A stretch of DNA of 64,000 bases from assembly GCF_000003815.2 (NCBI RefSeq), contig NC_049984.1:16606684-16670683 (forward strand), in the 5' to 3' direction. Positions 30,746-53,200 of this stretch are shown one piece after another; within the stretch, counting starts at the first letter, position 1; each line of letters begins with the position of its first letter. The notes beneath the pieces are model-generated. The model did no database searches. It saw nothing but the letters and a program-made list of their open reading frames with translations, and was not told the origin of the DNA. Source of the stretch: Branchiostoma floridae (Eukaryota; Chordata; Leptocardii; Amphioxiformes; Branchiostomatidae). The translations under genes were made by a program, and so were the position numbers.

Positions 30746-31554
30746 TCATAAGCCTTATACCGGTCGATTAAAAATAGTGGAACTTAAAGAGATCTACACA
30801 TGCAACAATAGTTATTTCTGAGGTATGCACACTTCAGACATCTAGGTGTCCAATACATAATTTACAAAGCATCGATAACAATGCATTCGAAGACAACAAG
30901 GCCAAAAGTTTTCAGGTCATTTTCGGGGCAGGCGAGCTCATCGTGGGACAAACACACTGTCACGTTCATCGCCAGATTTGTAGATAATAATCACATGCTC
31001 ACGGCACAAGACGAGCATGATTCAACAGCAATCTTGAATTTCTTTTGGTGACCTACAACTCGTGCAAAAGTGTGAGGAACCGTTGCATTATAGCCCGGAT
31101 CTACGACTGAATGGGTCAAATTGAACGTACGCCGCCATTTTCCCGCCATTTTTAATGCTACGGCCAGCAGTAAAGTTTTACGTCATAGCGGTTATGACGG
31201 ACCAAAATTAAATGAAAATTCTTGTCAGTATACGCCCATTTTCTCATGACTTTTTGTATGCTCATGCAGATTTTTGTTTTGTGCAACTACTAACAGGAAA
31301 GAAAGGAACAACAGAGGATGTATAAAGGTACACAGCGGCAGTTAATTGTGCCGTGTTTCGTTCGGCCGGTATAGTGCACCCCCTTCCAACCACGCGCCCG
31401 TTCTCCGTGCAATTCCGCGGTGTGTTCCAATTACGATATTATGTTTTTAGCAGGACCAGAGAGACAAAATAATTTACACAGAAGAAGTGGCAAAGGTAAG
31501 CTGTAACAGCAACATGTAACTGGAGAAGATGATGCGTTGATCATTTGCCAAATT

Positions 31555-31810
31555 CCTCTTCGCTGATTGGCTAGGTCTTTGATTCAATTAACTCTCCGGC
31601 TGACGCGCACAGGTGTGGCTCTGTGCGGGGTCACGGAAGGTCACGTCAGGAGGCCAAAAGAAAACAAATTTCCCCTCAGAAAAGTGCCAAAATTAATCAT
31701 TTTAAAGTTGTTTATGTCAAAAATTTTACTTGAATCTTGTTACTAAGTATCTAATGCCTATCTATACCAAATTTCAGGTCATTTAATTGTAATACCAGGG
31801 TACAGGAGCC
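31555..31810. repeat. Interspersed repeat A, copy 2
   Basis: Starts near cctcttcgctgattggct and runs straight into the 163-bp tandem array through the same gtaataccagggtacagg end. Confidence 0.75.
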
Positions 31811-32300
31811 AAAAGTGTCCTTTTTTTTGGTCAAAAATTGGTCAAAAATCGCAAAAATAAGCATTTTGTTGCACTGTACACCAAAAGTGTTATTGAATTT
31901 ATATGAAGGGATTATCAAGGCACATCTGTGTCAAAGTTCAGCTCATTCGGTTGCAATACCAAGGTACAGGAGCCAAAAGTGTCCTTTTTTGGTCAGAAAT
32001 TGGTCAAAAAATCGCAAAAATAAGCATTTTGTTGTACTGTACACCAAAAGTGTTATTGAATTTATATGGGGGCATTATCAAGGCACATCTCTGTCAAATT
32101 TCAGCTCATTTGGTTGTAATACCAGGGTACAGGGGCCAAAAGTGTCCTTTTTTGGTCAAAAATTGGTCAAAAAATCGCAAAAATAAGCATTTTGTTGTAC
32201 TGTACACCAAAAGTGTTATCGAATTTATATGGGGGCATTATCAAGGCACATCTCTGTCAAATTTCAGCTCATTTGGTTGTAATACCAGGGTACAGGGGCC
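31801..32300 (+). repeat. Tandem array, 163-164 bp unit, three full copies
   Basis: Units start at 31801, 31965 and 32128, and a fourth begins at 32291 before diverging. Each carries tacaggagccaaaagtgtcc, a doubled ttggtcaaaaa block, a gtactgtacaccaaaagtg block and a tcagctcatttggttg tail. Copies are nearly identical. Open frames here are repeat artefacts. Confidence 0.95.
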
Positions 32301-32308
32301 AAAATATA

Positions 32309-32624
32309 CAGTTTTGGTCTAAAATTGACCAAAAAATCTCAATAAAATCATTTTAGAGGCAGATATGAAAAAACTGAGAAAAAAGCATCAAGGTATTGGC
32401 CCATTCTACCCCTGTGCCAAATTTCAGGTCATTCGGTCCAGGAACGGCGGAGATGAATCACTTGAACAGTTTTGGTCTTAAATTGACCCAAAAAATCTCA
32501 ATAAAATCCTTTTAGAGGCAGATATGAAAAAACTGAGAAAAAAGCATCAAGGTATTGGCCCATTCTACCCCTGTGCCAAATTTCAGGTCATTCGGTCCAG
32601 GAACGGCGGAGATGAATCACTTTG
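32309..32624 (+). repeat. Tandem dimer, 158 bp unit
   Basis: Copies at 32309-32466 and 32467-32624 share cagttttggtct, a long gaggcagatatgaaaaaact stretch and ggaacggcggagatgaatca. It is related in style to the adjacent 163-bp unit: both hold a tttcag(g/c)tcatt(t/c)ggt motif. Confidence 0.95.
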
Positions 32625-32639
32625 AAGATTTGACAGGAG

Positions 32640-32666
32640 AAAGAAAGAAAGAAAGAAGAAAGAAAC
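32640..32666. repeat. (GAAA)n microsatellite
   Basis: About six gaaa units with one interruption, between the dimer and the THAP gene. Confidence 0.9.
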
Positions 32667-32829
32667 ATTACGAATACAATATATTTCACCATACTATGTA
32701 TGGCTGAAATATAATGAAACTGAAAACATTTCAAGATTTACAGTAACAAGTTGACCTTATGACGTCACAGGTCACCCACCTGCCCGCCATATTGGAAGTT
32801 GACAAAAACAAAGCAGAGAAACGTCAAAT

Positions 32830-33222
32830 ATGGTGCGTTGTGTCGTTTGCAGCGAAGGAAGCCAGTCTGCAGAAAAGCTAACCTTCCATAACTTTCCTAG
32901 AGACCCCAAGAGACGTCAAATATGGCTGGCACGCACAAGGGACCACATGGCGAATGGCGAATTAGTCGAATGGGTGTTCAAGCGCCCTTTAAAAGAGTGG
33001 GACGAAATCATAGACACTTGGAAGGTCTGTTCCCGGCATTTTGAGCAGAGATGTTTTCAAGAGTCCACGTTGAAGAGAATGCTGACCCTGACAGCGGTCC
33101 CCACCCTGTTTTCGGAAGAAGAGATGTCAAAGCATAAGCAGCGGGCACCACCAACAACAACACATGCCGAGCCGAAACTCCGGCCGTTGAAACCCAAGGA
33201 ACCAGGGCAAGAGCACATTTGG
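32830..33222 (+). CDS. THAP protein exon 1: THAP zinc finger
   Basis: 131 codons holding the whole THAP module and a basic, Pro-rich linker. The donor gtatgt is in phase 0. Confidence 0.92.
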
Positions 33223-36200
33223 GTATGTTGCTGATAATTTCTGATAACGTAACAAGTTCCCACTGGGATATCAAAGAAGGGAATGTGTTTGGGGGGAAAA
33301 TATAGCATAATTAAACCTCCATTGTTTTTATTTACATGTCATAACTTTTATTGACGTTTCTATTCATTTTAGAAATATATCTACTTGACCTGTAACAACA
33401 ATAACTTAGTATATATGTTCAAATCTTTGCTGTGGTTTTATGTTTCCAGTTTCTGTGGTGACCTTGTAAATGTAATTTTGCCAGTTAATTAGGACTTATT
33501 CCAACCATTGCCAGCACTCCTTTTTTTCGCGAAATTAGGTCCCTGCATTTTACAATTACAGTTAACTGTTAGTTATGCTAAAATACCTGTAGTTGATAGG
33601 GGTTTCTCCATTGTTTCCTCCCAGGAAGCTGAAAGGAAGACTGCAGTAAACACTGAAGATGTGCCTGGGATCTACATTACTAACGTCACCCGCAGGATAC
33701 TGAATGAGGTACAGTCAACTGTCTATAGCGGCCACTCAAGGGACTGGAGAAATATGGCCACTATAGACAGGTGGCCACTATAGAGAAAGTGTTGATCAAT
33801 TGACCATGAGCAAGCTACACATGATTTCAGTTCCCACTAATCTTTCTCACCAAGTAACATTGTCTCAATCGGTAAATAAACCGACAAAGTCTTGCACTTT
33901 AATGCTCAAGGAATGCATACCTTTTGCTAAGGCCAAAATGACCCTGTCAGGAACTCCAAATCCTCGCAAACTACAATTTCAAACTCGGTGCAGGGTGACA
34001 TAAGGCTGCAGTATGGTTGCAATAGGCAGTGTTTTTGTATCAATGGGACCGGAAATCGTATGGCCTTGGCCACGTTGGACAGGTGGCCGCTAAGCCTACT
34101 TCTTAATCATTACAAATCCAAGGGACTGACAAAAAGTGGCCACTATGGCCAGGTGGCTGCTATGCAAAGGTGGCCGCTAATACAGGTTTGACTGTAATGT
34201 TAATGTTGTCATCCAGGTCAGAACAGATCAAACCTTGAATTTCAGTCCGGCCTTGTTAACAGTTGTGTTATATCTAAAGGTGAGTTATGAGTTATGCAAA
34301 ACAAAGATTGTGCTCATTCACTCAGCTGCGTTTTTTAAATGTTACAACATTTCTTTCTAGGTTCCAAAAGTGAAGGAGATTGGGAAAAGGAAGCGATCTG
34401 AAGACACCGCAGACGTGCCAGCAAAGAGTCTTACCCCTGTATACCTGCCGAGTCAGCAGACCCGATGGCAGGGCGCCTGTAACACACTGGAGCTCACCGA
34501 CGACCAGATGGCCAAGTTCCTACTGGACAGGCAAGTTTATATACTAGTTTATAGTATACTAGTATGTCAATGGTTAAGGTCCCTGAGACATAAACAAAAC
34601 ACAATCTTGACATGTAACAACCATGGTCTAGTCAAGAGCTGTTAACAAGTTAGGGCCTTCACCTATCACCCATACTACCAATGATGCATCTCGCTGCACA
34701 TGTGCAGTTTTGACCATGAGAAGGCTTATTAAAGTCATTCATGAGTTATTTCACTGCATTGAAAGTAGTTCAAAAATACATGTCTTACAACATACAAGCT
34801 TTATTGACACAACAAAAAGTACATAAACTTTTGTATGGTCAACAATAAACTACAACAACAAAAAAGAGAAAGGATACAGAATACATCTTACAATGGCTAG
34901 GATAGCAGACATGAGATTAAGAGGTCACAAGTTCCATTTCTGGCAGTATTGGACCAGATGTACTGTCTTTTGGAAAGACACATCTCTTGACTTTCCTCAC
35001 TCCATTTGTAAATGGGTACCTACATCAGTACATGTATATGCCTTTTAGTCATGTTTTGCAATATTGTCTGAGTTGACTTGACTCTTCCCCTAATAAAGAA
35101 TAAACCTCTGTGACCTCAGTGTATGGAGGTATTATTTCTGTGTTCCTGTTTCTTAGATTTTAGAACTCCTGTTCTCTCTATTGGTTATATATAACTGTTC
35201 ATTTTAGCACATAGCATCTTAATCTTTAGTTTACAAAGGTAGCCACTGGGCTACCAATTCTCTATTTGAGATTTGAGGATAGGCATCAGGGAGAAACAGT
35301 GAAATAGTATGAACTTCAAGATTGTTTGTGTTTTTCTTCACTGCAGATATTACAAGGGAGACAAGTCGGTTTCAGCCTTCACTGGCAGTCAGATTACCCA
35401 CAAGACACTGCTGCTAGACCGTGGGTTGCTGACTCTGTGGAACGACACCATGGACGCCAAGGGCTTCAGCAGCGATAAAGACTTCCTCTGGTTCCTACTT
35501 CTTGGGCCACAGAAGTCAGTCACAAACTGTGAAAGGTGTACTGTCAAAGATCGTGTGGCCTCTGATGAATGTGTACCAGTAAAGGTAGATTACATAGGGC
35601 CTGGTTGTGCAGTATCGTCAGATACCAGCCAAGACTTGAATGATGCTGCGAATCTTCCGCTGATTTTACAGCCACCAGCACAGAAGCCTGGTCTCACACA
35701 GAAGAAGAGCGTCACCGAAACTGTGATGACCAAACCAAAACCTGTGACTTTGATAAAATCCAACATGGAAGTAAAGAGCAATGAAGTACAAAAGCCCAGA
35801 CAAAAGAGGAAAAGAAAGAAAGTGCAAGAAGTAACAAAAGATGATCCAGTATTTCTTGAGAGTTCATACAAGGACAGCAGTAATGTTGTGTGCAATTATA
35901 CAGCTCCAACTCAACAGAGTGTTCTTAAAGTTGGAGGAACAGAGAAAACGTTGACATCTACTCAAACGCTTGACCTGGTGAGAGATCCTAGCGACACCCA
36001 CCCACCCAAGAGTACAAAGACCAGAAAGCAAGTACAACATGTATCAATACCAATGGACAAACCTGCCAAGAACTTGGATAGTTGTGAAAGCACTACAACA
36101 AGTTGTGATGAGGACTTGAAAGAGGAGCATGAACTAGAGATAGACCTAGATAACTGTCACCGTACTGTTACATCTCAGTTAAGTTCTGATACCGTCAACA

Positions 36201-36592
36201 ATCCAGAAGACAGATTTGAGAAGAAGATAGTCAGTGGTGACAACCATGTTCCGTCTTCTCAGCTAAGATGGGCTGCAGTAAAAATTAAGGTTGAGAAGGA
36301 AGATGGAGTTGAGAGAGACCAAAACACATCATCATTCCCTCACCCTGGCATTCACGTTAAGGAAGGATATAGAGTAGATCATGACAGTTGTGACATGAAT
36401 ACATTTCAGTCGAGTTGTGATACCGTGAACATCAAAGTTGAAAAGGAGGATGAACTAGAGGAGAGCTTTGGAAGTAACGGTGGCATGAATGCGTCCACTG
36501 ACTCAAGTTTTGATACAGGTGACATCCAGGAAGAGGAACTTGAGATGCATCTGAATATGGCAATCATGGCGACAGCAAAGCACCTGGGCTGA
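32830..36592 (+). CDS. THAP-domain protein, 4 exons, complete
   Basis: Probable sequence-specific DNA-binding nuclear protein. Exons 32830-33222, 33625-33708, 34361-34530 and 35347-36592, phases agreeing, 630 residues. The THAP zinc module is N-terminal: C4-x2-C7, then C67-x2-H70 (VCSRHF), with HNFP and the closing AVPTLF at 89-94. The spacing of 59 residues between the second and third zinc ligands is longer than the usual 35-53. Residues about 197-275 (LELTDDQMAKFLLDRYYKGD onward) form a second compact, helix-like block I cannot name. The tail is acidic and Ser/Thr-rich, with a basic cluster (KRKRKK) and two IKVEKED motifs near 528 and 578 that fit the SUMO consensus. There is no transposase domain, so it is not a P-element-type gene. 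The ATG has A at -3. Confidence 0.9.
33625..33708 (+). CDS. THAP protein exon 2
   Basis: 28 codons (EAERKTAVNTEDVPGIYITN and eight more), phase 0 on both sides. Its donor gtacag overlaps the edge of a MITE. Confidence 0.8.
33712..34194. mobile_element. MITE with CAGTCAA inverted ends filling THAP intron 2
   Basis: Left end CAGTCAACTGTCTATAGCGG and, inverted, right end CAGTCAAACCTGTATTAGCG; both continue into GCCAC. TA flanks both sides (33710-33711, 34195-34196). Internal ggccactatag/caggtggcc motifs recur. It is non-autonomous and Tc1/mariner-like by its TA target. A truncated relative is at 29190-29340. Confidence 0.85.
34361..34530 (+). CDS. THAP protein exon 3
   Basis: Encodes VPKVKEIGKRKRSED, a possible nuclear localisation signal, through MAKFLLDR. 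The inferred donor is AG|gcaagt, a GC-AG intron with an otherwise perfect consensus; the phase fits exon 4 (AG|A). Confidence 0.85.
34531..35346 (+). other. THAP protein intron 3
   Basis: 816 bp, AT-rich, with a GC donor. No repeat structure was recognised. Confidence 0.6.
35347..36592 (+). CDS. THAP protein exon 4: C-terminal half
   Basis: 415 codons including the end of the unnamed block (TLLLDRGLLTLWNDTM), the basic cluster and the acidic tail with IKVEKED twice. It ends KHLG then TGA. Confidence 0.92.
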
Positions 36593-39500
36593 AGTTGTGA
36601 TGAAATTCATAAAAAAAAGAAACAACAGAAGAACTTTAGTTATTGTAGAAGTGCCAATACCACAGTATCTTGTCATGATCATGGCCATTACACTGGTATG
36701 AGTGAGGAAGCTGAAGCACTGTATTTTGGTAATAGACTTGTCCCATAGCCCCAACATGTCCATCAGAACATAGAAAGTCAGAAAGTACATGAAAATACAA
36801 AAGTTTGATGGACATGCAGCCGGTCTCTCATTGGTTGAACTAGTAACTGCCATGCTATCATTGGTTGAACTGATAATTGTTATGGACAGTCAGGATCGGT
36901 CTGTTGTGATCCAACCAATACTTTGACTCAACAAGCCTGCGCCTCCTCTTTCAACCTCCTTGCCTGCGCTTAAGAACATTCCAACTACTGCTAACTTATT
37001 ATGTACAATGTATACAAGTCTATGGTAATATATTATGTGTGCCAATTGTTATAATTATGTTGTGTGTGTTTATTCTGTTTGTTGGATGGTTGGTTTATGG
37101 TTCTGATTTTAACAACTCCTGATTTCGACAAGTAAAGTTGAAGCAATGATGAAAGGGAGGGACCAGTGATTACTACTTGAGTTGTGCATACCCTCAATAG
37201 ATTTTTTGAAGTATTTTTAGTATTGATAACTTTTTTTCTTGAACAGATTTTGCTCAGAAAGGTCCAGTTTCTTTCTATGATGGACAAATGACTGAACATA
37301 TAGAGTATGGTATACCGAATAATAGATTATTTTTGTTCTTTGACTTTTGCACTGACTTTTTACATTAGTAGCCCTTTTTAGAAATATTTTATTTGCAATT
37401 TGCCCATTGTGCAGTTGCTTTGAATGATATACAGTATGGTCCAAAACGTGTTTTCGAAAACGTGTGTTTTTTTTAAACGGCCAAAAATTGATATGTGTCC
37501 AAGGATTTCTATAATTAAATCATCAGGCTAGTGCAGAACCACAACTTTTGGAAGAATGCCAGCAACAGTGAAACAGAAGTCTGGGAGGAGAAGGAACGTG
37601 TACATGTAAGTAAATGTAAGACTATTCATAGATGGGTTCAATGCCTTGGAAATGCATAGAATCCTGATGATAAATCCTACCAGTGGGATGAGATATTTGG
37701 ACACCGACATGTGCGGAGCCTGCTGCTATATCATATATGGAGGCAACTGAAAGCCATCTTGTTTCCAAGGCTACCATCAAGCGCCCCACCTTGACATTTT
37801 AGGTGCGACCTCATGCGGAATGCTTCTGAAGGACAGCTTTTAGTTTTACTCATGATCAAGACAAATACATTAAAGCAAGCCCAAGCGTTCCCATTTGAAC
37901 TGAAATGTTGACACCAAAAGTAAAGATTAGGATCAGTTATGACGTAAGTCAGTCTGTCTGTCTGTAACTTGCGTCAAAATTTTGGATCGTCGTGAAAAGC
38001 ATTTTTATATGAAATGTCAGCTCCACAGGTCGCATTTCTAGACAGCTAACATGGTCCCTTGCACGGAATAACGACAAAATGTGAACCGCTTTAAATTGCC
38101 AAGAGAGAATTTGTTGTAAATTCCTCGCAGACTTGATCGTCTTACGTGTGAACCCTACTGAAACGGGCTTTGGTTTTGCAGACACAGGTACCGTGAAGCC
38201 TTTCTTTAATTTCGTCCTCTACGCATACGATACATGGCATGGCGCAGTTTTTTATATCATTGATTATTAGTGGTTTATAGTCAAGCAACCTGTTCCAAAT
38301 ATGTTCAGAACTTGGAATAGACAGCTTCATCAATTCTCACTCGGAAGCAAACGCTCTATATTTCTATTTCTGTAATGTGAAACTTGTGATATTTAGAATC
38401 ATTCATCTTTTATAATCTGGAAGACAACCTAATAATATATAAAGAGGAAAAGTGTTTTTACAGTTGTTGCTCTTTTTTTTTTAATTCTAATGTTCTTTAA
38501 TTAGCTTCTTTTCGTGGCCTACGTTACATGCATCCTAAATAATACAAGTACAATGTATAATACTAACGTTACATGTATTATCTACGTTATTCTGCGTCGG
38601 GAACAATAACTACATAGTGTGCACAGGAAACACTACTAGTATCTCAATAAAAAAATGTTTACGTCAGCAAATTGACCCTGTAGATTCGCGCCATACACTC
38701 CATACGCGTGCCTTGTGAAGGTCGAATGGTGTGTGTCACAGTGTGTGTGACGTAGTTTATAGCCAACGAGGTTAGTCTAGCGTCGAATCATACGTCATTC
38801 TCTCAGCCTTGAATTGTGCTGACAGATATACTTAGCCTTTAGACTTCCACTTTTTTTATCGGGATAGGCGATACACTAGTACTGCACATACATGTACAGC
38901 ATTGAGTGCTATGCCGTATCTGTTACAAATCACAGTTTAAGTAGCTATAACACCGTATTAACCACTTTCACTGAGCTATCGTACATGGACCAACATTAGG
39001 TGTATGTATACGTACTTTTAAGGCCATGTTTATCTGATTACATGGATGACATCCACCCAGAAACTGATGGGAGCGTGCAAATTAAATGGTAAAAAACAGA
39101 CCCCTTCATCATAAAATCTAAGTGGTCAGGTACTAGTATACGTGTTCTTTATGAAGCAATCTGCGGCATATCTTTGCTCATATTATCAAATCAACATGGC
39201 CTAAATTTGGCGAAATATCTAAACATTGGATGTGTGTGACACTTCATTCATAGCTGAAATATTAGGCAAAATATAAAAGTATTATTCAAAAGACGGCAAA
39301 ACACACAAATCTTACAAACTCGTTCTTTATGTATGAAATTCGGTGATCTGATAAATCTTTGGTCGCTCATGGGTCGTAGGGTGGTCACAGCCTGAAGTGG
39401 AAATTTATGCAACACCGTTACCACCAGACGGCGATCACTCAGCAACCGTTCAGCGACTAACAATAACGCTTTCTTTCCGTAGTTAGAATATGATGCAATA

Positions 39501-40294
39501 GGTAAAATACGATTCTATTAAAGACAACAAAACACACAAAATGTTCTTGAAAAGCGCCCATAATTTATGAAATTCATTGAACGATCCGGATCCTACGATC
39601 TTATAGACGCTCAGTGGTTGGTCAGCGGTCATAGTCTCTACTACAAATACCTAGGTTCACACATACCTATTCATGGAATAGGTATAAAGACACACTAATT
39701 AACGTTACACTGCCAACGTTAGAAAATGCTCTCGTGCAACCCAGATCCAAGAAAAAACGGTGTTTTGATAGTGATAGACAGATAGTAGGGATCGATCAAT
39801 GGCCAACTGTGGTATGTTACCAAACGTACAATCGAAATCTCGGCCATGTCGGCTGACCTTTCTAACTATCGGATGTGACTTAAAGGTCCGGTTGTAGTAC
39901 AGTCATTATCTGGCACCTGTCGTGGCAAGAACCTAATCACTAGAGATCGTATTGTCCAATCCGGTGACCGGGAATTTGGAAGAAAAATCCCGACGCAGAG
40001 AGCACCATAGTTCAATGTAAAAGTAGAACTAAGTCACCTTGATAGTTTAATGCTTATGCCATTAAACGTTAACATTTCTCTCTGACTCTGTTTCAAAGTC
40101 TTTCGAAAAATGTGTGAAACCGTTCCTAGAACTTAAAATGTTAACCATATGACAGACAGACATAATGTATGTGTCTTCAACATGCCACGTACATGCATAT
40201 TCTTGTGCCAAAGTCCCCTTCCCTCGTACATCACATTGATCGTAGACGCGGTCTACGCAACAAGGATGTGGTACGATAATATGTGACTACATGC

Positions 40295-40479
40295 AATCTC
40301 CAAGCAGATGTTTGGAAAGGAAAGATCATAACGTTTTCTGATTGCCCCGGTTTACGTTACCTTAACACAACCCCGAGTCAGTCATAGTCAGAAATGCTGC
40401 AATCCATCGGTACTTTATTCTTTATGGGGCAGGTAGTCAAGAAGAAAGAATTGTTCCTCTAAACATCTGCTTGAAAATT
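40295..40479. mobile_element. MITE of the CTCCAAGCAGAT family
   Basis: Left end AATCTCCAAGCAGATGTTT and right end, inverted, AATTTTCAAGCAGATGTTT. No coding content. Confidence 0.65.
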
Positions 40480-41210
40480 GATGTCTCTGTTTTGTGTCAT
40501 CAGTTCCACAGCAATCACGCCCGACTGTAATCCAACCACAAACCTTCCCGTAGGGTCACGTAAGGACACCTCACGTGAAACAAGTGCAATCCTCTTTAAT
40601 TTGCATAATCTTGCTCACATCACCGGTACAGGTTACATGCTATTACACTCAAAAGGCATGCGAGTACAAAAGATGTACTTTGATACTGGCCTTTTGATAT
40701 CATGTAATATTTTCGATCCCATCTTTTTATGTTGACATTGGGTGTTAAGTCGATTGCATTTATATCTGTGCCCCCGACAGCGTTATAATTCAAGCAGTCA
40801 CGAGAAAGAAGTTGTATCTCTAAGAAATATATGTATTCTAGCTTCTACAATCAGAAACAATAGTGTAAGAACCGTGTCTATTCTATATCTGACGTCCTCT
40901 GATCGTTGAGTAACTCGATACGCGATGTTTTATGCATGGGCATCACAAGGTGTGTGAGTCTACGCCTGAAATATGTTGCACGTTAAACTTTACCCCTCTT
41001 CCCCTTCAACTGTTCAAATGTCTCTCCAAACCAACAGTTTTATTTCAATCGTTACCGTGCTGGTTTAAAAGACAGTATAACAGAGTGTGGCGTGCAGAGA
41101 AGAGGTTATTGTTGAGATGACGAGGTGTGAAGAGTCGACAGACAACACGGATGGGCGGGAGGAGGAGGAGGGAGGTGTCTGCTGTGTGCGCAGCCGCAGT
41201 CCGCCCCGCC

Positions 41211-41221
41211 GCGCCATCTTG
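41211..41221 (+). promoter_or_regulatory. YY1-type site
   Basis: GCGCCATCTTG matches the YY1 core (CCATCTT). It lies 35 bp before the proposed ATG, where YY1 sites are often found just downstream of start sites in CpG-island promoters. Confidence 0.5.
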
Positions 41222-41255
41222 TTCTGTTTGTTTGCTTGCTTGTTTGGTCCCCATC

Positions 41256-41295
41256 ATGTCTCGGCGCAAACAGGCTCTCCCCTTCAAGCTCCAGC
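41256..41295 (+). CDS. RREB1: RREB1 exon 1: MSRRKQ micro-exon
   Basis: Encodes [13 protein letters not shown], then gtaagt in phase 1, which matches the AG start of exon 2 (C|AG). MSRRKQ at the extreme N terminus is the NuRD-recruiting motif of SALL, FOG and BCL11 zinc-finger proteins. The ATG has A at -3 and sits in a CpG island. The link to RREB1 spans 16.7 kb and rests on phase, strand and motif type. Confidence 0.65.
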
Positions 41296-44200
41296 GTAAG
41301 TACACCTTCCCATTTTACACCTGTCTCCTCTCTAAGACCTCGATCTCCCTGTTTGAGTCACTTTTGTAGAGTTTGGTGGGAGTTTATAGGGGCTACATCA
41401 CTTGTAAAAACCCGGGCACCGGCTGCGATCGACATCTCCGGTGTTGTCGATCAAGTTATCCGGAGGAGCCGTCCCTCCTGACCCTTTTGTGCGGATGCAA
41501 GGCGTTTCCATGGCCCGCCCGCATCCCCACCGCGCGTCCTGGCGTTTACGACTCGGTAAACGTGTCTCAGACCGATGTACCAGCACGAATCGCGGTGTTA
41601 GGGCGCTCGGGGAAACTTTTCGGCGCGGAGATGGGGGCCCGGCTGGCTTCCTCCTTCTCCTTCCGGGATCCGGTGTTCGCATCCCCGATTCTCCCGGCGC
41701 GGTGTCTGGCGGTCCGACAGGGTCATTAAATATGCTGCACGTCTGCGGCGCGACACGGCAAAACTCCGGCACCATCAATCACTCCCCTGCCCTTGTCACG
41801 AATTTGGGAACATTTTCGGCAAGGTCGATTTCTTACGGGATGGAAAGAAACTCTCCATCTGTTAGGTTTTCAGAGGGGGGATCGGCGCCACCGGTCCCGG
41901 TAGCGGCCTGAGTTGGACATTGGCACTCCTGGCATTTTGGTCAAGGAGAAAAGTACGGGAGCAAACAACATGGCCACCAGATGCACCTAGATGTAATTTG
42001 TTTGCCCCCAGGAGATCTAGAATTAAAGACTAATGTCTCTTTCCTTCTGAGATGGCACAGTTTGAAGTGGTTGAAGGATCCCACCCCTGCTTGAGAGTAG
42101 TTTGAGTTGAGAGGTTGGAAAGCAAGGATGGGGTACACCTGGTGAAACAAGTGCCCCACTGGACAAACAAAAAAGAAAACTTGGCCAGCATCCAAAAACT
42201 CTGAATAGCACACCTTGTTGGGGCCTCCTCATTAAACCCTTTGTTGGGAGGGGGGATCTCGGCTGCATCACCTAATCTCATTTTGTCTCCTCTTACGATT
42301 TTCTCCGTAGGTGTGTGATTTTTGCTGGTCTTTTCTCACCAGCGGCTTTTATTTGTGCGGCTGGCAGTGGGAAGAAAAGGTGGGGGCGGTGCCAAGACTA
42401 GGCTCCGTCAACACCATCATTGTGTCATTTCAAACAGGAACCTTGCAAAAGGTAAACATGCACAGAGGCAGACTATTCCGCCATTCAGCCCACTGATGGG
42501 TAATTATTCAGGTTCAAGCTTTTCAGGCTGATTGATTTTTGCCTCCTCTATTTAGAATGGGGGACCCACTGACTGTATCATGTTTCCTGGGCACTGTGCT
42601 CCTTCCTCCATTTCCTGCCGAGCTTCTGTCCCCTCACCCAGTAACCAGTTGTCAGCAGTTCCCTTCTCTAGTGGTGGGTTTTTCACTGCCAGGTTTTCCA
42701 TCAGATGTGCCAAGAGATGCTGAAAGCCATACATCTATTTTATGACTTACTTATCGGGCCATATGTAAATGATGGCTAGATCTTAAGTCTACCTTCTGGT
42801 GGAATTTGACCTTCGCATGTCAAGGGCAGGCCAATGATATGTTGTCTCTTGTTGTAGAGTAGGGAGAAAAGAGACTGCCTCTCTTGTCTCTTCGAATGTA
42901 GATGAGGGCTGGAAACATCACAAATACTGTAGTCTTCTTGATTTCTACAAGAAGTGATTTGTTTTAGAAGATATGTTTCTTTTTGTCTGCACAGCTCAGG
43001 TATCTTTGTTGTGAAATGATCCATCCGTTTCTCAGGTGTTTTGGGTTGTACCTGCATACCTGTGCGCAGGGCCCCCAGACTCTAATCTCCAATCAGGATT
43101 GTGGCCCAGGTAGTGTTTCCACAACATCAGAAATATATCATGCCCCAACCTTAAAACTTATAGCATCTCCCTACACCAGACAATGTAAACACTGCACACA
43201 CACACATACGATCCAACCAATGAGAGCAAGCCACGGTGAAGAGGCTACAAGATGGCATCAGGTCAACTGTTCAAAACACTTCTCTTCATCCTCTTTGAAT
43301 TGTTCTTAGCTCTCTTGCAGTTTACATGATGCTGCGTGTCTGCCACATATTAATGTTATTGATTAATTGCAGGAGGTATCTTTGGTGGGATCAGGAATGT
43401 AGGCTGTTGCTAGGCAGCCCTGACCTCAGGTCTACTGTCTGTTATCTCTGGCTGGGAACAAAAGGCTGGTAGATTTCTACACTTTGGGGCAGATCCAAGT
43501 CAGTTCAGTGGACCACATCAGCATTCATACCAAACAATTCGAAGATTTTGCACCATAATGTATCAAAAATTTGTTGTGAAAATTTAAACCATAGAACTAG
43601 ACCCAAGAAGCGGTGGAGGAAAAATGACAGTCAGCCAAAGTTGCATCATCTCTGAGACCACATTTTCGTTCTGCAATGTTCTCTTTTACTATCAAAACCA
43701 AGGAGAAAATACCAAATGAGAACTGAAGTTGACCATTTTCATTTCCTCTTATAAATGGTTGGATTGGTCTTAATGTAGTATACAAAAGAAATATACAGAG
43801 TTGCAATGTTATAGGAGGCATACACACCCCATTATGTATCCTACATTCTTTAATAAGACTTTATAGTCCAGTTAATTCCAGTGAAGCTTTACAATTCAAT
43901 ATGGAATATGACTCCATAAATTCCAATGGCTTGGCTTGCTGTGGCAATTCCAAATAAGTGGAAATGAATATCCATTCTATGAAAATAGCAGCATTAATTA
44001 TACACTACAGAAATCCCATAAAAAGTCTACACATATTTTTCTAGTTATTAACCAGATCTACTTTTACAGTAAATGCAAAAGCATTCTCTAAGTCTAGAAT
44101 AACTTCATTGCATTTAGCTAAAATGAACCCCAGTAACTCTTGTTATTCCTCCTAATCCATTTAGTAGCTGCTAATGAGACATATGGGAGGCGTTAACGAG

Positions 44201-47200
44201 AACCAGAGTAGTCCTTATTCCTGCCCCCTGGGGGTGGAGGAGACACCCATGTCAGAGGTGAAGGTAGATGAAAAGGTTGGGACTTGACCAACCAGTTTTC
44301 TCCCCATTGTCTTGTCATGGATTGATAGAGGATGCTCTAGGCGAGGCATCTCTTTCATCTGGATGTGAATGTGCGCATGCAACAGGCTGGCGGGTTTTGT
44401 TATTGCCCCCTGGGTCTTGATAATTGATAAATTGCCTTGGCGACAAGAGGTTTGGCTATTGAGCTCTGTAAGCCACTGGAACAAATGTGGGAGGGACACA
44501 GTAGCAACTGTTTGCTCAGTCAAGTCCCCAAATTGAAAATTATTCGAGATTTTCGGTTTTGTACCATGTGATCAGAGGATTTCGTGTTATGATGAGCATT
44601 GTCTTTGTAACCAAAGAACTGTGTAAAAAGTATCTGGGTATGCTGGATTGATAAAGAATGTTAAACAACTCTTCTTTTGACCCTTGCCAGACCTCTAAGC
44701 AAGTCTGTTTCATTTGCAAGCATTTTACCACTATCAAGTATGGACCAAACATTTCTTATAGAGTTTAAACTAAGGTTTTAATGTGCATAGATTTGAAGTA
44801 AGACTACATGGTAAATTTACACGTATCAGTATGACTTTTAAAAATGCAAATTCCGGTTCAAATAAGGCAAAACGACTGAGATTTCCTGTAGATCAATGAT
44901 GTCATCTTCAGAAAACTAGCAGTTAATCTAAATTGCAGTCCTCTATAGCTCTTAAATAGCAGCAAACCATTATTATCTTCCTAGTACCTGCTGACATTTG
45001 AAAGTAGCAGGCTTTGATGTTGCCTCTAGGTGTGTCACTCCTAAATCGTCTGTCAAGAGGGCTCTTGCATGGCTCAGTGTGCTTTGCTGTGGAGGAGAAC
45101 TTGGAAATTGTAGTCTATTGTCTCCTTTTTTTGTGACAAGATGCTTCAAGTTTACTTATTTGTTCAGGGATGGGGAAAATGAAGCTTACCTCCATACACA
45201 GCTTTAGGAATTAAACATAGATACAAAATGAAGTTTGTCTTACTGGGTATCCCTTTGTTTTCATCTTCTTGCCATTCTACAGCAACAGCTTCTTTCCTGA
45301 GATTGCAAAACCACGGAACTCTCTCGATGACTGTTTCCCTCCTTTTTGCAACATTGAAGCCTTCAAAACTAGTACCAGCATTTACCGCTGTCTCCGAGCA
45401 TAGTAATTTCACCATCCATCAACTAAGTTCACTATCTAAAAGTAGTAAAATGGCCTTGCATTCGATACAAACCGGTTTAAAAAATCTTTTGTTTTTTTGT
45501 TTTATTTTTACTTTAAGATGTCAATGCAGTATAAGGTTGTTGTACCAAAGTCTTCTAGGCCTGTACAGATAACTCTGATCCTACAAAAGTCAACAAAAGC
45601 CTTTTAAACAAGGGGACAAAGATTGATGAACTGCAGTGAGCCAAGTTGATTATTAAGTCAGGTGGAATGAAAAGAATAAACTGTGCATATGTATGAACTT
45701 TGTCACTATTACCATGTCATTTAGAAGTAGGTGAAGTTTGAGTGTGTTTACTTTTACTAACTACCAATAAGATAGTCCACTAATAACTACATTGTTGTCA
45801 TGAGAATCCTATGTCATCAGATTGAAGAGGGTACCGGGTGAGTTCTTTCACAAAATGGAAAGAGGCCAGTTCGTTCCACAAACTCGATCCTAGAGTATGG
45901 GTTTCCAAAGTCAAATATTAGCACAGTCACAGATACCTTGTTACCCCAGTAGAACTAGAAGACTTTGTCATTTGCAGATGGGATGCATATGATATACAGT
46001 AAAACAACAGGCATTCTCTGTGCAGTTATTCCATGTGTTGTTGTTATGCTTTTCAAACGAAGGGAAGAATACAGGACATGCACTAGAAACATGTAACAGG
46101 GTGGTAGTGTATAGTTGAGGTCTCCAAGTTCGTACTCAGCAGGCATTTCTATGTTGGAGTTTGATAGATGCATTTTCGATAAGAATTAGTCAATCCGGAT
46201 ACCAGAACCTTGGCCCAATCTCAACAATATATATGTATATTTAAAAGTAGACTTTTCTGGGAGTATTTTGCCCTTGAGCTGAGGACTTGGTCTGCTTAGG
46301 CTCTGGAAACAGTCTGGCATCCAGGCTAGATGAAAGTATCAGAGAAAACCCCCTTTGTGGTGACAATTTTGTAACTCAATAAGCTCTTTAAAGCAAAGAG
46401 AAGCTGTGAACATATAACATTGTGTACAATACAGGTATCCAGGACTCTCTCTGGCTATATTTTTTCTGTCGGACCCATTTGTTTGGGAGCCCATGTTGTT
46501 GGTTTTCCTTGTTAGGTATGTGGTTTTAAGCTTATGAAAATGATACATTTTGAAGTTCAGCCATTTGGGACGGATGGGGTAAGATTTTTCTGTCCCAACT
46601 AGCAAATTTCCATCCTGGAATGGAGGGGCGGGTCCTGGAGACAGCCCTGGTATTGTGTGATACTGGTACTAAAGATGGTCATTGTATTTTCAAACAGGTC
46701 TTTCTAGATGGAAGCATGAGAAAATCTAGTTTCTCCATCCCAGTGAAACACCTGACACCCCAGACACAGGTCACAGTGCTGTCTGCCAGGCCCGGCTGTG
46801 ATGATATGCAGCCCTTTAAACTCCTCTCCTGGCAACAGAGTAAATAGAGCACCATTCAGGGGTGCAGCCCATTGTGTTGTATAAAGCTGGTATAGCCTTG
46901 CCTGAGTTCCAACCTGGAGGAAAGAAAACATAGTTTAATGGTGGAGCACACAAAAATGTGTGCACAGGGTGCAGGTAGAGACACAGATATCATACTCCAT
47001 GAATACATCTATCATATTACAGCCTATCCATATGGCAGTATATCTCTCACATATGCATATATGGAAGAGTATATGATGATCATCTTAAAAGCGAGGAGAA
47101 GTTGAATCTACCCAGCAATAGTCTCATTTTGTGTCTGTTACCGTATCTTTTCAACATGTCTTGTTGTGACCTGTACCAAGGAAGTTGAAAAAAGGCTTGC

Positions 47201-50200
47201 CTGTATTTAGCCTGGTGTGTAAAAAATGTGCAATATGAATAAAGGTCGTAATCTTATATCAGGACATACAAGTTTGTACCTAGATGTATATCAAACCATC
47301 ATAGACATAGACATGTGTGCATTTTTTCTTGGGTCATAATTGAATGGAAAGTTACTTTTTTTTTGCATTTGTAGATGAATACATAGCATTTTCCACAATC
47401 AACCAAAATGCCAAAGACAACAATGCCATATGCAAGACAGGTCCCTGTGCCAGAGAGCGGTAATATGAGCCCTCTTCACTCAGCAATGCTTGCTGTGCAG
47501 TAATTCACCTCTATTTGATCTTGACACAGCCCCCACTCTTTGCCCAAGCATGCAGGTAATGAGATTTGTCACTGTCGTCTACCTGGTGTAGAGTGGCTGA
47601 GGGAAAGAGACATTCCAAAGATGTGCAGTGTTCAAGTTTATGTACATGTGTTCTACTGCTAGTAGTACATTGTACATTTTAGGTTGCAGTGTCCACTATC
47701 CGTCCCTCTTTCCCAGACCAGAAATTTGCCTCTTGCGATAGACCAAGAAATCCATGTATTCCATCCCAAAAATCTGAATTTTATGACAGGAATTGATGAG
47801 ATTATGTACTACCCATAAATTTTTGGTTCAGAGTGTGCTTACATTTTAGGTTGTGGTGTCTAGTAGTACCCATCTCTTTGTCCCTGCCCAAAATGTTGCC
47901 ACTTGGGATGTCTACAAAAAATTTGAATCCTTCCATCCCAAAAGTCTGAATTTCATGGCATGAAATTGATGAAAATGTATTTTCGTAAGCATAGAATCTC
48001 AGAATTAGCACCAAATGTTAACGACTTAGACTCCCGAACAATGAGGGGGGTGGAAAAAAATTCAAGTTGGTCTAGGAGATTTTACAGCTACAATCCGAAC
48101 CTGATTTTATAGGGATTCCCACATGTGCCATTTAATTGCAGCTGTTGCACAATTGTACAGCAGTGCAAGATAACAAATGGAGCCAGGTGGTGATGCAAGG
48201 GTCATAGGTCACTGGACATAAACTCTTCAGCTCAATAAATGTAAAAGACAGAAAGCACAGCCTCAAGTAGTGTCTCTTTCTTCTTTGAAAGTCCCATGTA
48301 GACAAAATAGTGTGTCAGTAGTAAGTGTTAGATCCTAAAGGCTACAGAAACGAATCTGCCCACATAAAGTTGGTGTAAAATCTGTTTTCCATCACATCAG
48401 TTTGGTTATCGAGACAGAATGTAACTTGTGTGACATTTTTATGAAGCTTTTCTTTGTAGTCGCACATAACAGGCTATCTTCAACAAGAGATGTTGAAGAT
48501 TACAAGTTGATCAAATTGCGTACAAGATCAAGTGTCCTTGGCAAGGGCTGTTGCATCTCAGCAAAAGCTCATCAACCCAGGAGGTGACTTGGCCTTCTGT
48601 GCAGCATCTTTAGCATCAGCTATTTATAGAAGGTGTTAGGCTGGTGTCTTGGGAGGAGTCTGGCTAAGAGTAAGAGGGTCACTCCATTTTGAGGGGAGGG
48701 GGGATGGAATGATTTGAAGGATTAAAACATCAAATGCTAGTTTTGAAAGCAACTGGATATGATTTTGGAAACAGACATTTCAGACTCCATTCTATGTTTG
48801 TAGTCAGTGAACTATCATTTGGCATATCTTATTATGTGGATGTCTAAACTTCATCAATGTCATCTAATTTTAAACATCACTTTGCCTCGGATTTTCTAAC
48901 CTTCATCCGATTTAAAACTCAGTATACTTTTCACTGTGAAATCTAGGCTCCTCACATTAATTGGACTATGGTGACTGAAAAATCCAACACTGCCCTTCAG
49001 ATTGTGTTGAAATAGCCAAGAAATTAGTGAAGTTCAACGTATTTGTTGTGATAAGAGACAGTTTTGAATGTATCGTTATATGTTACAAGCTTTTGGCTGA
49101 TCTTCAAGTTCAGTATCACATGATGGCTGCTTCAGTAAATTTTGAAATGTCCACCTGCCTTTGTGTGTACAAGAAACAGTAGTTTTTCTCTGTATGGCTT
49201 TGTAGTGTGTATGCACATACACGGTGGAAATGTGTACAAACGTCAAAGTCCATCGGAACAGTATTGGACCATTAGTATGTAAAAGGTCACTGCATCTTTC
49301 GGTTCACTTCTAGCTGCACATAGAGAACCCGCTATTGTTGTTGTATAGTCGGGTGATGGTTCGTGCATTTGTCATTTTGAATGATGCATACTGAAAATTA
49401 CTGATTGGCATTTGAAAACTTGGGTTGCAGAAAGTATCACGAAAATTGTTGTAAAAATGCATTCAGAAGAAAGGTATGTGACAAGTACATGTCAGCCACA
49501 CATGTATTATGTGAGCATTCCCAAGGACAGTCTATATTGCTCTTAGTAGGTTTTTATTTGACCACGTTGTGAATGATTAACTATGTGATGGTTGTTTGGT
49601 ACATAGTTCCCCCTGACTGTAGTTGTATAGATGGATTGTACTAGGAAAGATAGGGGGAAACTGAGATAGATGAAAAAAGAATGGTAGCAAATGGAAATGT
49701 GGCACAGCAAAAAAATGAATTTGCACAAACAAATGTGAGAGAGAAATGCCCTCGAAAAAAATAACCACATTGACTTTAACTTTAACCTCCACGAGACTTT
49801 GCTAATAGCTATCTTCAATGTTTTACCGTTTCCAAAAGCATACCCAGTTGCTCGAGAAGCTGCCTTTTGGTGTAATTTTCTATAGTGTTTTGCTACTAAG
49901 CTTGAGGATACAGTACACTATTCTGTCCAGGTAGATTTAATTTTCAGATGGTAGTATCACAATGAATTACAACATCCAAAATTTGCAGTCAACATCTATG
50001 GCAATTTCTCCTGTTAAATATTATCCACGCAACCAAAACCACACCTGTTGAAAGAGGCTATGCATCACCTGTTTCCCCTTGTCTCCACGATCTGTCACTA
50101 TGGTAACGCATCCTGGAGCACCCGGGACAAAAGATGGGCCTGAATTATTGATGGACCGGCGGTACGGTTACCAGGCAACCATCGGAGTGAAGAGGAGTGT

Positions 50201-53200
50201 TTCTCATTGGTGCTGAACAAATTCCCGTCCGAGGTCACAAGAAGAATGCGAAAATAATATTGATGGTCTGACAGCTTTTATAATGACTCCCTTTCTAGAT
50301 AGATCATATACAATATAGATGAAGGATAAAATGATAAGAAGACATACATACTGATACTGGGCTAAATTTGAGCAACATCTTATCCACCCATTATAGCAAA
50401 TGAAAGGACTAGAGTAAAGATATCCCTTCACTTGTGGAGGATATAATATATGCTAATGTAGCAAAATACAATGTGATACCAATTTCAATTTTTTTGTAAG
50501 GTAGATCATTCCAAAAAAGAAATGGCTATAGGTGCCTTTTTTACTAGCTTACATTTTTAACGTAGTGGAATAACTCAGTCTCTTAATTAGTCAGTCTCTT
50601 ACATGAAAGCTTTTATTTGACATCAGCATTATAGATGGCTGTAGTTGGTGTGATGGCTATTGTTGTATGTTCTCTTGGGGCCTCTTTTGCTAAGCATCTG
50701 TTTTCTGTTGTATCCTTGTCAATTATACTCCCCATACATATGGTATCCTTGCCACTGTTGGCAGTAATGCCTCCCTCTAGGCATCTAATTAGCCAGTAAT
50801 TGCTGTAAAGACTTGGGATGGAGGGGGGATTTTTTTAGAATTTTGTTTCCGCCTCCAGGAAAAAGAAGTAAAAGAACGTAGGATTAAGGTTTTGTAAACA
50901 AATACCTGTGACAGGTTGGAAGGAATGTGCTTTGTCTTTATCAAGTAGTAGTATGATAATTATGCTTCAACTGGTATGATTGTATAGTATTTGCTGTCTC
51001 CAGCTTTCATTTTTTTTCCGTCTCACTAATTGTTTGATAGCCCATTTGTTGATTTTCATCAATCTCATGTACTGGAGTTCAAATTTTTGGGAAGGATGGA
51101 GTGCAATTTTTGTCTGTCCCAACAAGCAATTTTTGTCTGCCCCTTCCATAGACTGGAAAAACAAGGTATGTTTACTGGAGGTAAGGTTGTCAAATTGAAA
51201 TCAGCCTCCCTGCATGAACCTATCAGCCTAGGTAAAGCCTTTCTGACAATGTAATTAAGTCTGCTACCATGGCTACAGGGGAAATGTAAGGAGCACAAAA
51301 TCAGGAGAGAGGTGAGATCATGCTGTGTTTAGAGCATGGGGTGATGATAAGCTCCAAGATGCAGCTGGGAGAAGTGCCCCTTTTCTTTTGTTGATGTCTC
51401 TCTTCTTGTTGTTGATGAGTGGTGGGGATGGGAAAAAGTGCACCACTAGATTTAAAATGTTTAGGTTCGGAAAAAAAAAAAAAAATGTTGTGATCTAGTT
51501 TCAGACTTGCAAAAAAAACTATCTTTCACTCATATTCTGCTTCTAAACCATTTAAAACCTTCCATAGACTGGAAAAAGATAAAAACATTGCAGCAGTTCT
51601 TGTGTTTATGTCTGAGCTTTTGCGTTTACTACTTACAAAGTTACTGTATTTAATTTTGCATGTACTGTATTTTTTTTTTTTTGCATGTAAAATTTATATC
51701 GGAATCTCTTGACCTGAATTCATACATTGTACCTGAACCTCAACATGAGGTACTATGAAAATGAGGTACTATGCAGCACTACATTTGTAAGACAATTGAC
51801 CAATCTATATTATTACAACAGGTTTGGTTGCTGTTTAATCAAGTGAATATGAATCATAACACAGGGTTTTTGTATATGTATTAGAATTTGAGGGGTTTAA
51901 TGATAGTTAATCAGGACTTGGGAGGTGCATTGCCTTTTTACTAATCTAGTGATTGTGTACTGTCATATTCAAACCACAATCAAATACTGGTTTAATCATT
52001 ATCAACTGTACATGTAGCTGTTGAAGTTGTTGAGTCAGGGCTGTGTTATTTCAGAGGATTGAGTGAGGAAGTGTGCAGGTGTGGCATCCTGTATGGGTGG
52101 TAGCCAAAATGACGTGGCAGGGAGGAAGAACAGATAACAACTTATTGGTCTTGTCTATCCACAACAGTTGTTTGCTTTTAGTTATTCAGCATCAATCATT
52201 AATCTATTAGTTTTGTACAGTTTGTCCTTTTTAGTCTAATAAGAAATCATTTTGTGTATATTTGTATTATTTGTAAAAGTTGATCATTTTGTTGTTGTTG
52301 GACCATAATTCCTAATCCTTTGTCAGAAAAATAATCTGCTTTGTTGGGTTTGTGACCCAAAGATTTGGTCCCCAAGTCTTTTATTTTGTTTTTAAACTTT
52401 TTATTGTCAAGTCTAGGTGTGTTGGTACAGTACACTAGAAATTCAGCATACCATGTCATGGCTGAAGTGGACCTGTCACTATCCAATCTTTCCCAAAGCT
52501 TAAGTAACTTGTTCATCTAAATAAGTATTTGAAACATGAATAAGAGACAACAAGAATCATACACAGGATCCATCTACCCCCTGCTGCACAAGCATTGATT
52601 GGTTTGATGCAAAAGGTGATAAGATTAGTCTGAGCCTTTTGGGGGGACATGCATATTCATGAGCTGGAGGAAGAGTCTGGAAAGAGTCAGCCCGATCTTC
52701 AGCACCCTGCCCCCACCCCCAGCATCCAGCCAGTTGGTACGTGCTGACATGTGAGTGGCAGGAGACTGATGCGGATGTAGACCAGGGAGCCAGACACACG
52801 CGCACATGCCAGCAGCCTCCTCATGCCTCCTGGGTTCTCCCGTCTCCCCGTACCAGGCTCCGGGCTGCACTCCATCCCCACCGCCGCCACGCCCCAGCAG
52901 AGATGAGTGGCCTCCCCGCACTCTGGAAACCAGGTCGTTCTTTCCTCATCTTCCTAACTTCTAGCAACAAACACCCTGGGAGAGCCCCTTGCTATCTAAA
53001 CCACTCAGCCTGCCAGAAGTTAACCTGATAGCTCTGCTGAAGCATTCATCCTCACTGATGCCCAGATCTTCTGACCCGCCAACCTCGCATGCACACAAAG
53101 AATTCCGTCAGCCCCTTTGTTTCAGTGTGGGGAAGGAGCCCAGCTCAGATGGGGTAGGAAAGGTGGGACAGATGTGGAAGGGAGGGAGCAGCTTGCACAG

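Follow-up and report, generated by a model that had tools for sequence, protein, structure and literature searches.

We find that positions 41256-41295 of the Branchiostoma floridae DNA analysed here (a single stretch of 64,000 nt, hereafter the window) probably encode the first coding exon of the lancelet RREB1 gene, and that this exon would give the protein an N-terminal docking peptide for the NuRD complex. We put the probability of the whole proposal, including splicing to RREB1, docking of the peptide on RBBP4/7 and thereby NuRD, and recruitment of CtBP by the same protein, at roughly 84%. What we observe directly are the sequence and its frame, a complete gene model, a motif match, the likeness of this exon to other first exons in the genome, and a CpG-depleted unit. 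The in-frame join, the genome census and the CpG unit together lead us to assign the exon to RREB1 and to the known class of NuRD-docking starts, an assignment that is very probably correct; the functional, NuRD-docking reading of the exon is likely.

The RREB1 gene model and its first exon

The gene model and its sequence motifs are as follows.

41256-41295, + strand: exon 1, the first coding exon; 13 codons plus one base, ending in phase 1
41262-41282, + strand: RRKQALP, which fits the N-terminal NuRD interaction motif RRKQxxP (consensus from PMC11602157)
41296-58022, + strand: intron 1, 16.7 kb, GTAAGT...TTTTGCAG, by splice-site reading
58023-58627, + strand: exon 2; its first 62 residues are acidic, with 18 D/E to 1 K/R, and a basic KKKKRKK segment is also present
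59249-59308, + strand: exon 3 of the gene model
60259-60435, + strand: exon 4 of the gene model, zinc fingers
61097-61419, + strand: exon 5 of the gene model, zinc fingers
61901-64000 and beyond the window, + strand: exon 6, most of the zinc fingers; the stop codon ends at 66395 in continuous numbering (base 2395 of L002)
63585-63599, + strand: PLDFS, CtBP-type sequence motif
63681-63695, + strand: PLDLS, CtBP-type sequence motif

Read from the window and the adjoining 10 kb of the genome, the six exons join into a single 1,899-residue open frame that encodes 20 C2H2 fingers (counted by regular expression) and both PLDxS motifs that a first-pass annotation of this DNA had noted. The RREB1 name is a lead that rests on this architecture and on likeness to human RREB1: 53 of 85 residues (62%) are identical to a human RREB1 fragment of approximate sequence. 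When the finger region is used as a query against the genome, the window's three places alone fall below 1e-30 and the next match is at 4.4e-16 (among the matches listed; 132 of 3,708 candidates scored), and a single RREB1 orthologue appears among the matches listed. When a portion of the finger region was compared with the PDB, the best 60 of 160 matches were generic fingers, with RREB1 absent from them.

Exon 1 reads ATGTCTCGGCGCAAACAGGCTCTCCCCTTCAAGCTCCAGC, followed by GTAAGTAC at the donor, with C/GTAAGT at the exon end (the slash marks the splice site). At the acceptor, TGTTTTGCAG followed by AGGGC (58022/58023), two bases complete the split codon CAG for Gln14, and exon 1 joins exon 2 in frame in phase 1 (41295 to 58023). 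The first-pass claims of a 40-base NuRD-motif exon and of an in-frame join to RREB1 exon 2 over 16.7 kb thus both hold: the stretch reads as such an exon with a phase-1 donor, the frame fits and the six-exon gene model is complete. Going upstream from the acceptor, the exon 2 frame reaches a stop before any ATG, and after residue 1 the joined protein has its next methionine at residue 83. Because there is no earlier methionine, an upstream coding exon is needed if the first 69 codons of exon 2 are translated. Pfam detects no family on exons 1-2, and the first 21 residues matched nothing in a sequence search of the PDB.

The weak point of the exon 1 donor is its exon side, where -1 is C instead of G. 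With a simple PWM it scores 5.6, and the other four donors of the gene score 11.3, 5.6, 11.2 and 8.7; an equal or higher score is found at 71 of the 1,199 GT dinucleotides in 40000-58000. Candidates that run from an ATG to a phase-1 donor at least as good number 27 in 36000-58022. Only three of these lie at GC of at least 0.45 and CpG observed/expected (o/e) of at least 0.6, and two of the three are exon 1 itself.

We estimated chance expectation on both strands with a first-order Markov model built from the window. The model predicts 0.0015 occurrences of MSRRKQ and 6.7e-5 of MSRRKQxxP in the window and, when extended to the genome, about 12 and about 0.5, respectively. A relaxed pattern for NuRD-type starts matches exon 1 alone in the window. 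On the same strand, the only C2H2 patterns 3' of exon 1 in the window are those of RREB1. Another zinc-finger gene within intron 1 is ruled out by a same-strand C2H2 pattern search that gave zero matches there, and one reverse-strand ORF in the intron has no Pfam family. A second copy of the exon 1 region is likewise ruled out, the region having a single place in the genome in a search that skipped very common words.

Candidate MSRRKQ first exons across the genome

N-terminal NuRD interaction motifs (NIMs) follow the consensus RRKQxxP and internal ones the consensus RK(x)xxPxK/R (PMC11602157). Zinc-finger repressors with an N-terminal NIM include FOG-1, FOG-2, SALL1, SALL2 (isoform E1), SALL4, BCL11A, BCL11B, ZNF827 and ZNF296 (PMC11602157, PMC6644156, PMC7937961). 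The RREB1 peptide carries the complete RRKQxxP in a C2H2 zinc-finger protein, right after Met-Ser and at the N-terminus if the ATG at 41256 is the start codon, and the motif first described as of the SALL/FOG1/BCL11 type agrees with the published consensus (PMC11602157). Like its counterparts in this genome, it sits on a short first coding exon of its own with a phase-1 end, a trait of the class that we observe here and that is not part of its published definition. The RREB1 peptide differs from the class in Lys11, with which the internal consensus fits too, as in the tighter-binding ZNF512B motif. By eye, this double fit is found in two of the seven motif exons described below, RREB1 and L038.

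In the host genome (513 Mb, 431 contigs) we counted 83 pattern sites, compared with 59 for the reversed-pattern control. MSRRKQ is encoded at 19 of the 83. Nine of these 19 have proline at +3, far above the roughly 0.5 expected, and the remaining ten are at about chance level. An accepted phase-1 donor follows seven of the nine MSRRKQxxP sites (L010, L028, L030, L031, which is the window exon, L033, L037 and L038). Donors were picked by visual inspection, and phase was taken into account for donors and acceptors alike, so that the uniform phase 1 partly reflects selection. The donor lies after 40 nt in L028, L030, the window exon, L037 and L038, after 52 nt in L010 and after 73 nt in L033; it reads C/GTRAGT in four of the seven, and six of the seven have leucine at position 12. 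In L030 a second consensus donor, this one in phase 0, follows after 69 nt. We left out of the accepted set L016 (MSRRKQLEP, no donor listed) and L043 (MSRRKQEEP, a weak phase-1 GT), and a Fisher test of 7/9 versus 1/10 is given no weight, the donor calls being by eye.

Among the six other accepted exons, three lie ahead of exons with C2H2-type fingers, and a fourth belongs to what is recognizably BCL11. We take L010 to be BCL11 by the DHDLLTCG...FIEHK block in its next exon, which the C2H2 regular expression misses, and L028 to be ZNF423/521-like by its first finger. L037 and L038 each lie ahead of an unnamed zinc-finger gene on the same strand, the next exon of L037 being a candidate. L033 is presumably SALL-like by its start, and a C2H2 pattern search of about 14.5 kb downstream of it found no finger exon; the same search of about 25.5 kb downstream of L030 found no match. 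In each of the four loci with a candidate next exon (L010, L028, L037 and L038), that exon has a phase-1 acceptor, and phase-0 acceptors occur as well in L010 (one) and L038 (three). The NuRD-type start of L038, which is on the reverse strand with its candidate exon 2 beginning at base 4473 of the reversed locus, is MSRRKQQNPTRLA; its motif RKQQNPTR fits the internal consensus with arginine.

The window exon is an ordinary member of this genome's MSRRKQxxP exon set. A recent copy of a sister exon was considered and rejected: the window exon has 20-25 of its 40 bases in common with the other six, and the third positions of the six shared codons, alike at 1 to 5 of 6 per pair, show little trace of recent copying. 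The window exon and L037 agree at 5 of 6, and a kinship between these two is possible.

These counts bear on the reading in which RREB1 starts elsewhere and the exon is part of another gene or open by chance. The chance expectation of about 12 MSRRKQ in the genome and the 10 of 19 sites found to be without proline speak for such a reading. Nevertheless, we regard it as highly improbable, since several features concur: the proline and Leu12, a length of 40 nt, the phase, a CpG boundary described below and a sole same-strand C2H2 gene downstream. A chance open frame in particular is ruled out by the chance expectation, the census and the CpG boundary.

CpG profile, start codon and possible alternative first exons

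Four further features surround exon 1.

41001-42000, no strand: stretch rich in GC and CpG that contains exon 1 and is probably its promoter region; GC 0.52 and 0.58, CpG o/e 0.77 and 1.06
41151-41153, + strand: in-frame upstream ATG, 105 nt 5' of the ATG at 41256; its use would put the motif 35 residues inside the protein
41213-41220, + strand: GCCATCTT, a YY1-like element by sequence match, 43 nt 5' of the ATG at 41256
42001-58022, no strand: CpG-depleted stretch, nearly the whole of intron 1; CpG o/e 0.29 overall and under 0.4 in 28 of its 32 500-base bins

On the 5' side of this stretch, CpG o/e is 0.95 (38001-41295) and 0.99 (41296-42000); on the 3' side it is 0.54 (58023-64000), so that a weaker depletion extends into the RREB1 exons. 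Viewed at a resolution of 200 bases, the step at 42000, about 700 nt 3' of exon 1, is sharp. Methylated gene bodies that are transcribed are marked in invertebrates by a loss of CpG; because of this, the depleted stretch seems to be the body of one transcribed, methylated unit that starts at about exon 1 and runs into RREB1. The informative feature is the fall after 42000 rather than high CpG o/e itself. Values of at least 0.75 are common upstream in the window and occur in 52 of its 128 500-base bins, whereas GC of at least 0.5 together with CpG o/e of at least 0.6 is uncommon (11 of 128). High CpG o/e is also no mark of the seven motif exons, because 4 of the 12 other MSRRKQ sites (L016, L039, L041 and L043) share it at 0.82 or more. 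Milder falls in CpG are found behind L028, L033 and L038, a partial one at L030 and weak ones at L010 and L037.

Two ATGs could begin the protein: that at 41256 directly precedes serine and the motif, and that at 41151 opens the same frame upstream. YY1-like elements follow a placement rule near transcription starts, and the element at 41213 suggests that transcription begins close by. Together with the A at -3 of the ATG at 41256, where the ATG at 41151 has C, the element favours 41256 as the start codon. Translation from 41151, which would leave the motif inside the protein to bind RBBP4 weakly or in the manner of an internal motif, is unlikely on these grounds, even though the frame is the same and RKQALPFK fits the consensus RK(x)xxPxK/R too. 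In-frame upstream ATGs are, moreover, also found ahead of two of the six other motif exons, L033 and L037. The YY1-like element recurs 95 nt before the ATG of L010, the presumed BCL11, and is present in two of the seven motif exons.

A further alternative, which we consider possible and hold to be the less probable reading, is that exon 1 is real and is one of several alternative RREB1 first exons, with NuRD docking restricted to certain isoforms or tissues. SALL2 offers a precedent, in that its NuRD motif lies on a first exon found in isoform E1 and missing from E1A (PMC7937961). The 25 other candidate phase-1 starts in 36000-58022 are compatible with such use, as is Met83 in exon 2, which could begin a motif-free form. 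At 55501-56000 a lone CpG-rich spot (o/e 0.93) breaks the depleted intron 1; it could be an alternative promoter or a repeat, and no further copy of it is present in the window or in the other loci extracted. Against alternative first exons, none of the candidates in intron 1 passes GC of at least 0.45 with CpG o/e of at least 0.6, and the intron is CpG-depleted from 42001 on, as expected if it is already transcribed through.

Proposed corepressor recruitment by RREB1 and its possible evolution

Based on the exon, its motif and the gene model, we propose that transcription would start in the GC-rich stretch just 5' of exon 1 and that exon 1 would be spliced over 16.7 kb to exon 2, giving the 1,899-residue protein with the NuRD peptide at its N-terminus. 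The peptide would dock on RBBP4/7, in the same acidic pocket that accommodates the tail of histone H3, with Arg3, Arg4 and Lys5 as the charged contacts, and would bring NuRD to the sites bound by the zinc fingers, presumably for repression. The central PLDFS and PLDLS motifs would bring CtBP and thereby LSD1/CoREST. RREB1 would thus be an added member of the zinc-finger class with an N-terminal NuRD motif, and RBBP4 binding is predicted. Arg3, Arg4 and Lys5 of the motif contact RBBP4, and the BCL11B substitution R3S, which is causally linked to craniosynostosis, raises the Kd for RBBP4-MTA1 from 0.13 to 1.16 uM, a nearly tenfold weaker binding (PMC6644156). The ZNF512B motif has a Ki of 19 nM versus 1,200 nM for FOG-1 (PMC11602157). 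By analogy, Lys11 may raise the affinity of the RREB1 peptide for RBBP4. The peptide also has Leu12, a residue that modelling of BCL11B puts near MTA1.

Lancelet RREB1 probably shares with vertebrate RREB1 and Drosophila Hindsight/Pebbled the zinc-finger family (by its likeness to the human fragment), and it shares CtBP-type motifs. To our knowledge, vertebrate RREB1 is without a NuRD-type start and the human protein begins otherwise. FOG proteins carry a CtBP motif and act as GATA cofactors. FOG (ZFPM) resembles the RREB1 proposed here in having an N-terminal NuRD motif and a CtBP motif in one zinc-finger protein; the two differ in that FOG acts through GATA factors, whereas RREB1 binds DNA itself. 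The NuRD and CtBP pairing is not new in itself, because FOG proteins combine both. The double-corepressor design first suggested for this gene therefore stands in that NuRD-type and CtBP-type motifs are both present, and it was overstated in that FOG already has such a pairing. Lancelet RREB1 has 20 fingers by regular expression, versus 15 in the human and 10 in the Daphnia protein (PMC2889900).

The recorded partners of human RREB1 count partly for and partly against the proposal. In its favour, BioID places human RREB1 with the CtBP1 complex, and the protein co-elutes with RBBP7 and HDAC1/2, in a SIN3A-KDM1A complex (PMC7495420). It has also been placed in the CtBP complex (PMC7085234). Against the NuRD reading, the partners on record are SIN3A, KDM1A and CtBP, the word NuRD has no occurrence in PMC7495420, and PMC3964310 ties RREB1 to KDM1A and HDAC3. 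RREB1 has no mention in PMC11602157, and literature listings gave no open-licence paper linking RREB1 to an SRRKQ or NuRD motif.

The seven MSRRKQxxP starts in one genome suggest a single, shufflable ancestral exon. Tentatively, and as a conjecture that may well prove wrong, the NuRD-docking first exon could be an old, shufflable module of about 40 nt in phase 1 (MSRRKQxxPxxL, often with C/GTRAGT) that early animals placed before several zinc-finger genes including RREB1. In vertebrates, RREB1 would subsequently have lost it and been rewired to SIN3A/CoREST, lancelet RREB1 would still couple NuRD to CtBP, and Lys11 might bind RBBP4 more tightly than the FOG-1 motif does. RREB1 is a RAS-responsive zinc-finger factor whose haploinsufficiency leads to a Noonan-like syndrome (PMC7495420). 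If true, a NuRD-docking start in the RREB1 of an invertebrate chordate would mean that corepressor wiring changed in chordate evolution, and it would allow a peptide-level test of one factor's choice among NuRD, CtBP/CoREST and SIN3A. With similar motif exons in one genome, the spread of a docking motif among zinc-finger genes becomes testable.

The window also holds neighbouring genes recognized by Pfam: lipase exons (11655-13870, + strand), a TGF-beta ligand with its propeptide and part of the mature domain (19158-19991, - strand) and a THAP domain (32803-33231, + strand). A second CpG-depleted stretch at 31501-38000 (o/e 0.43) spans the THAP-domain reading frame and is probably another transcribed, methylated gene body.
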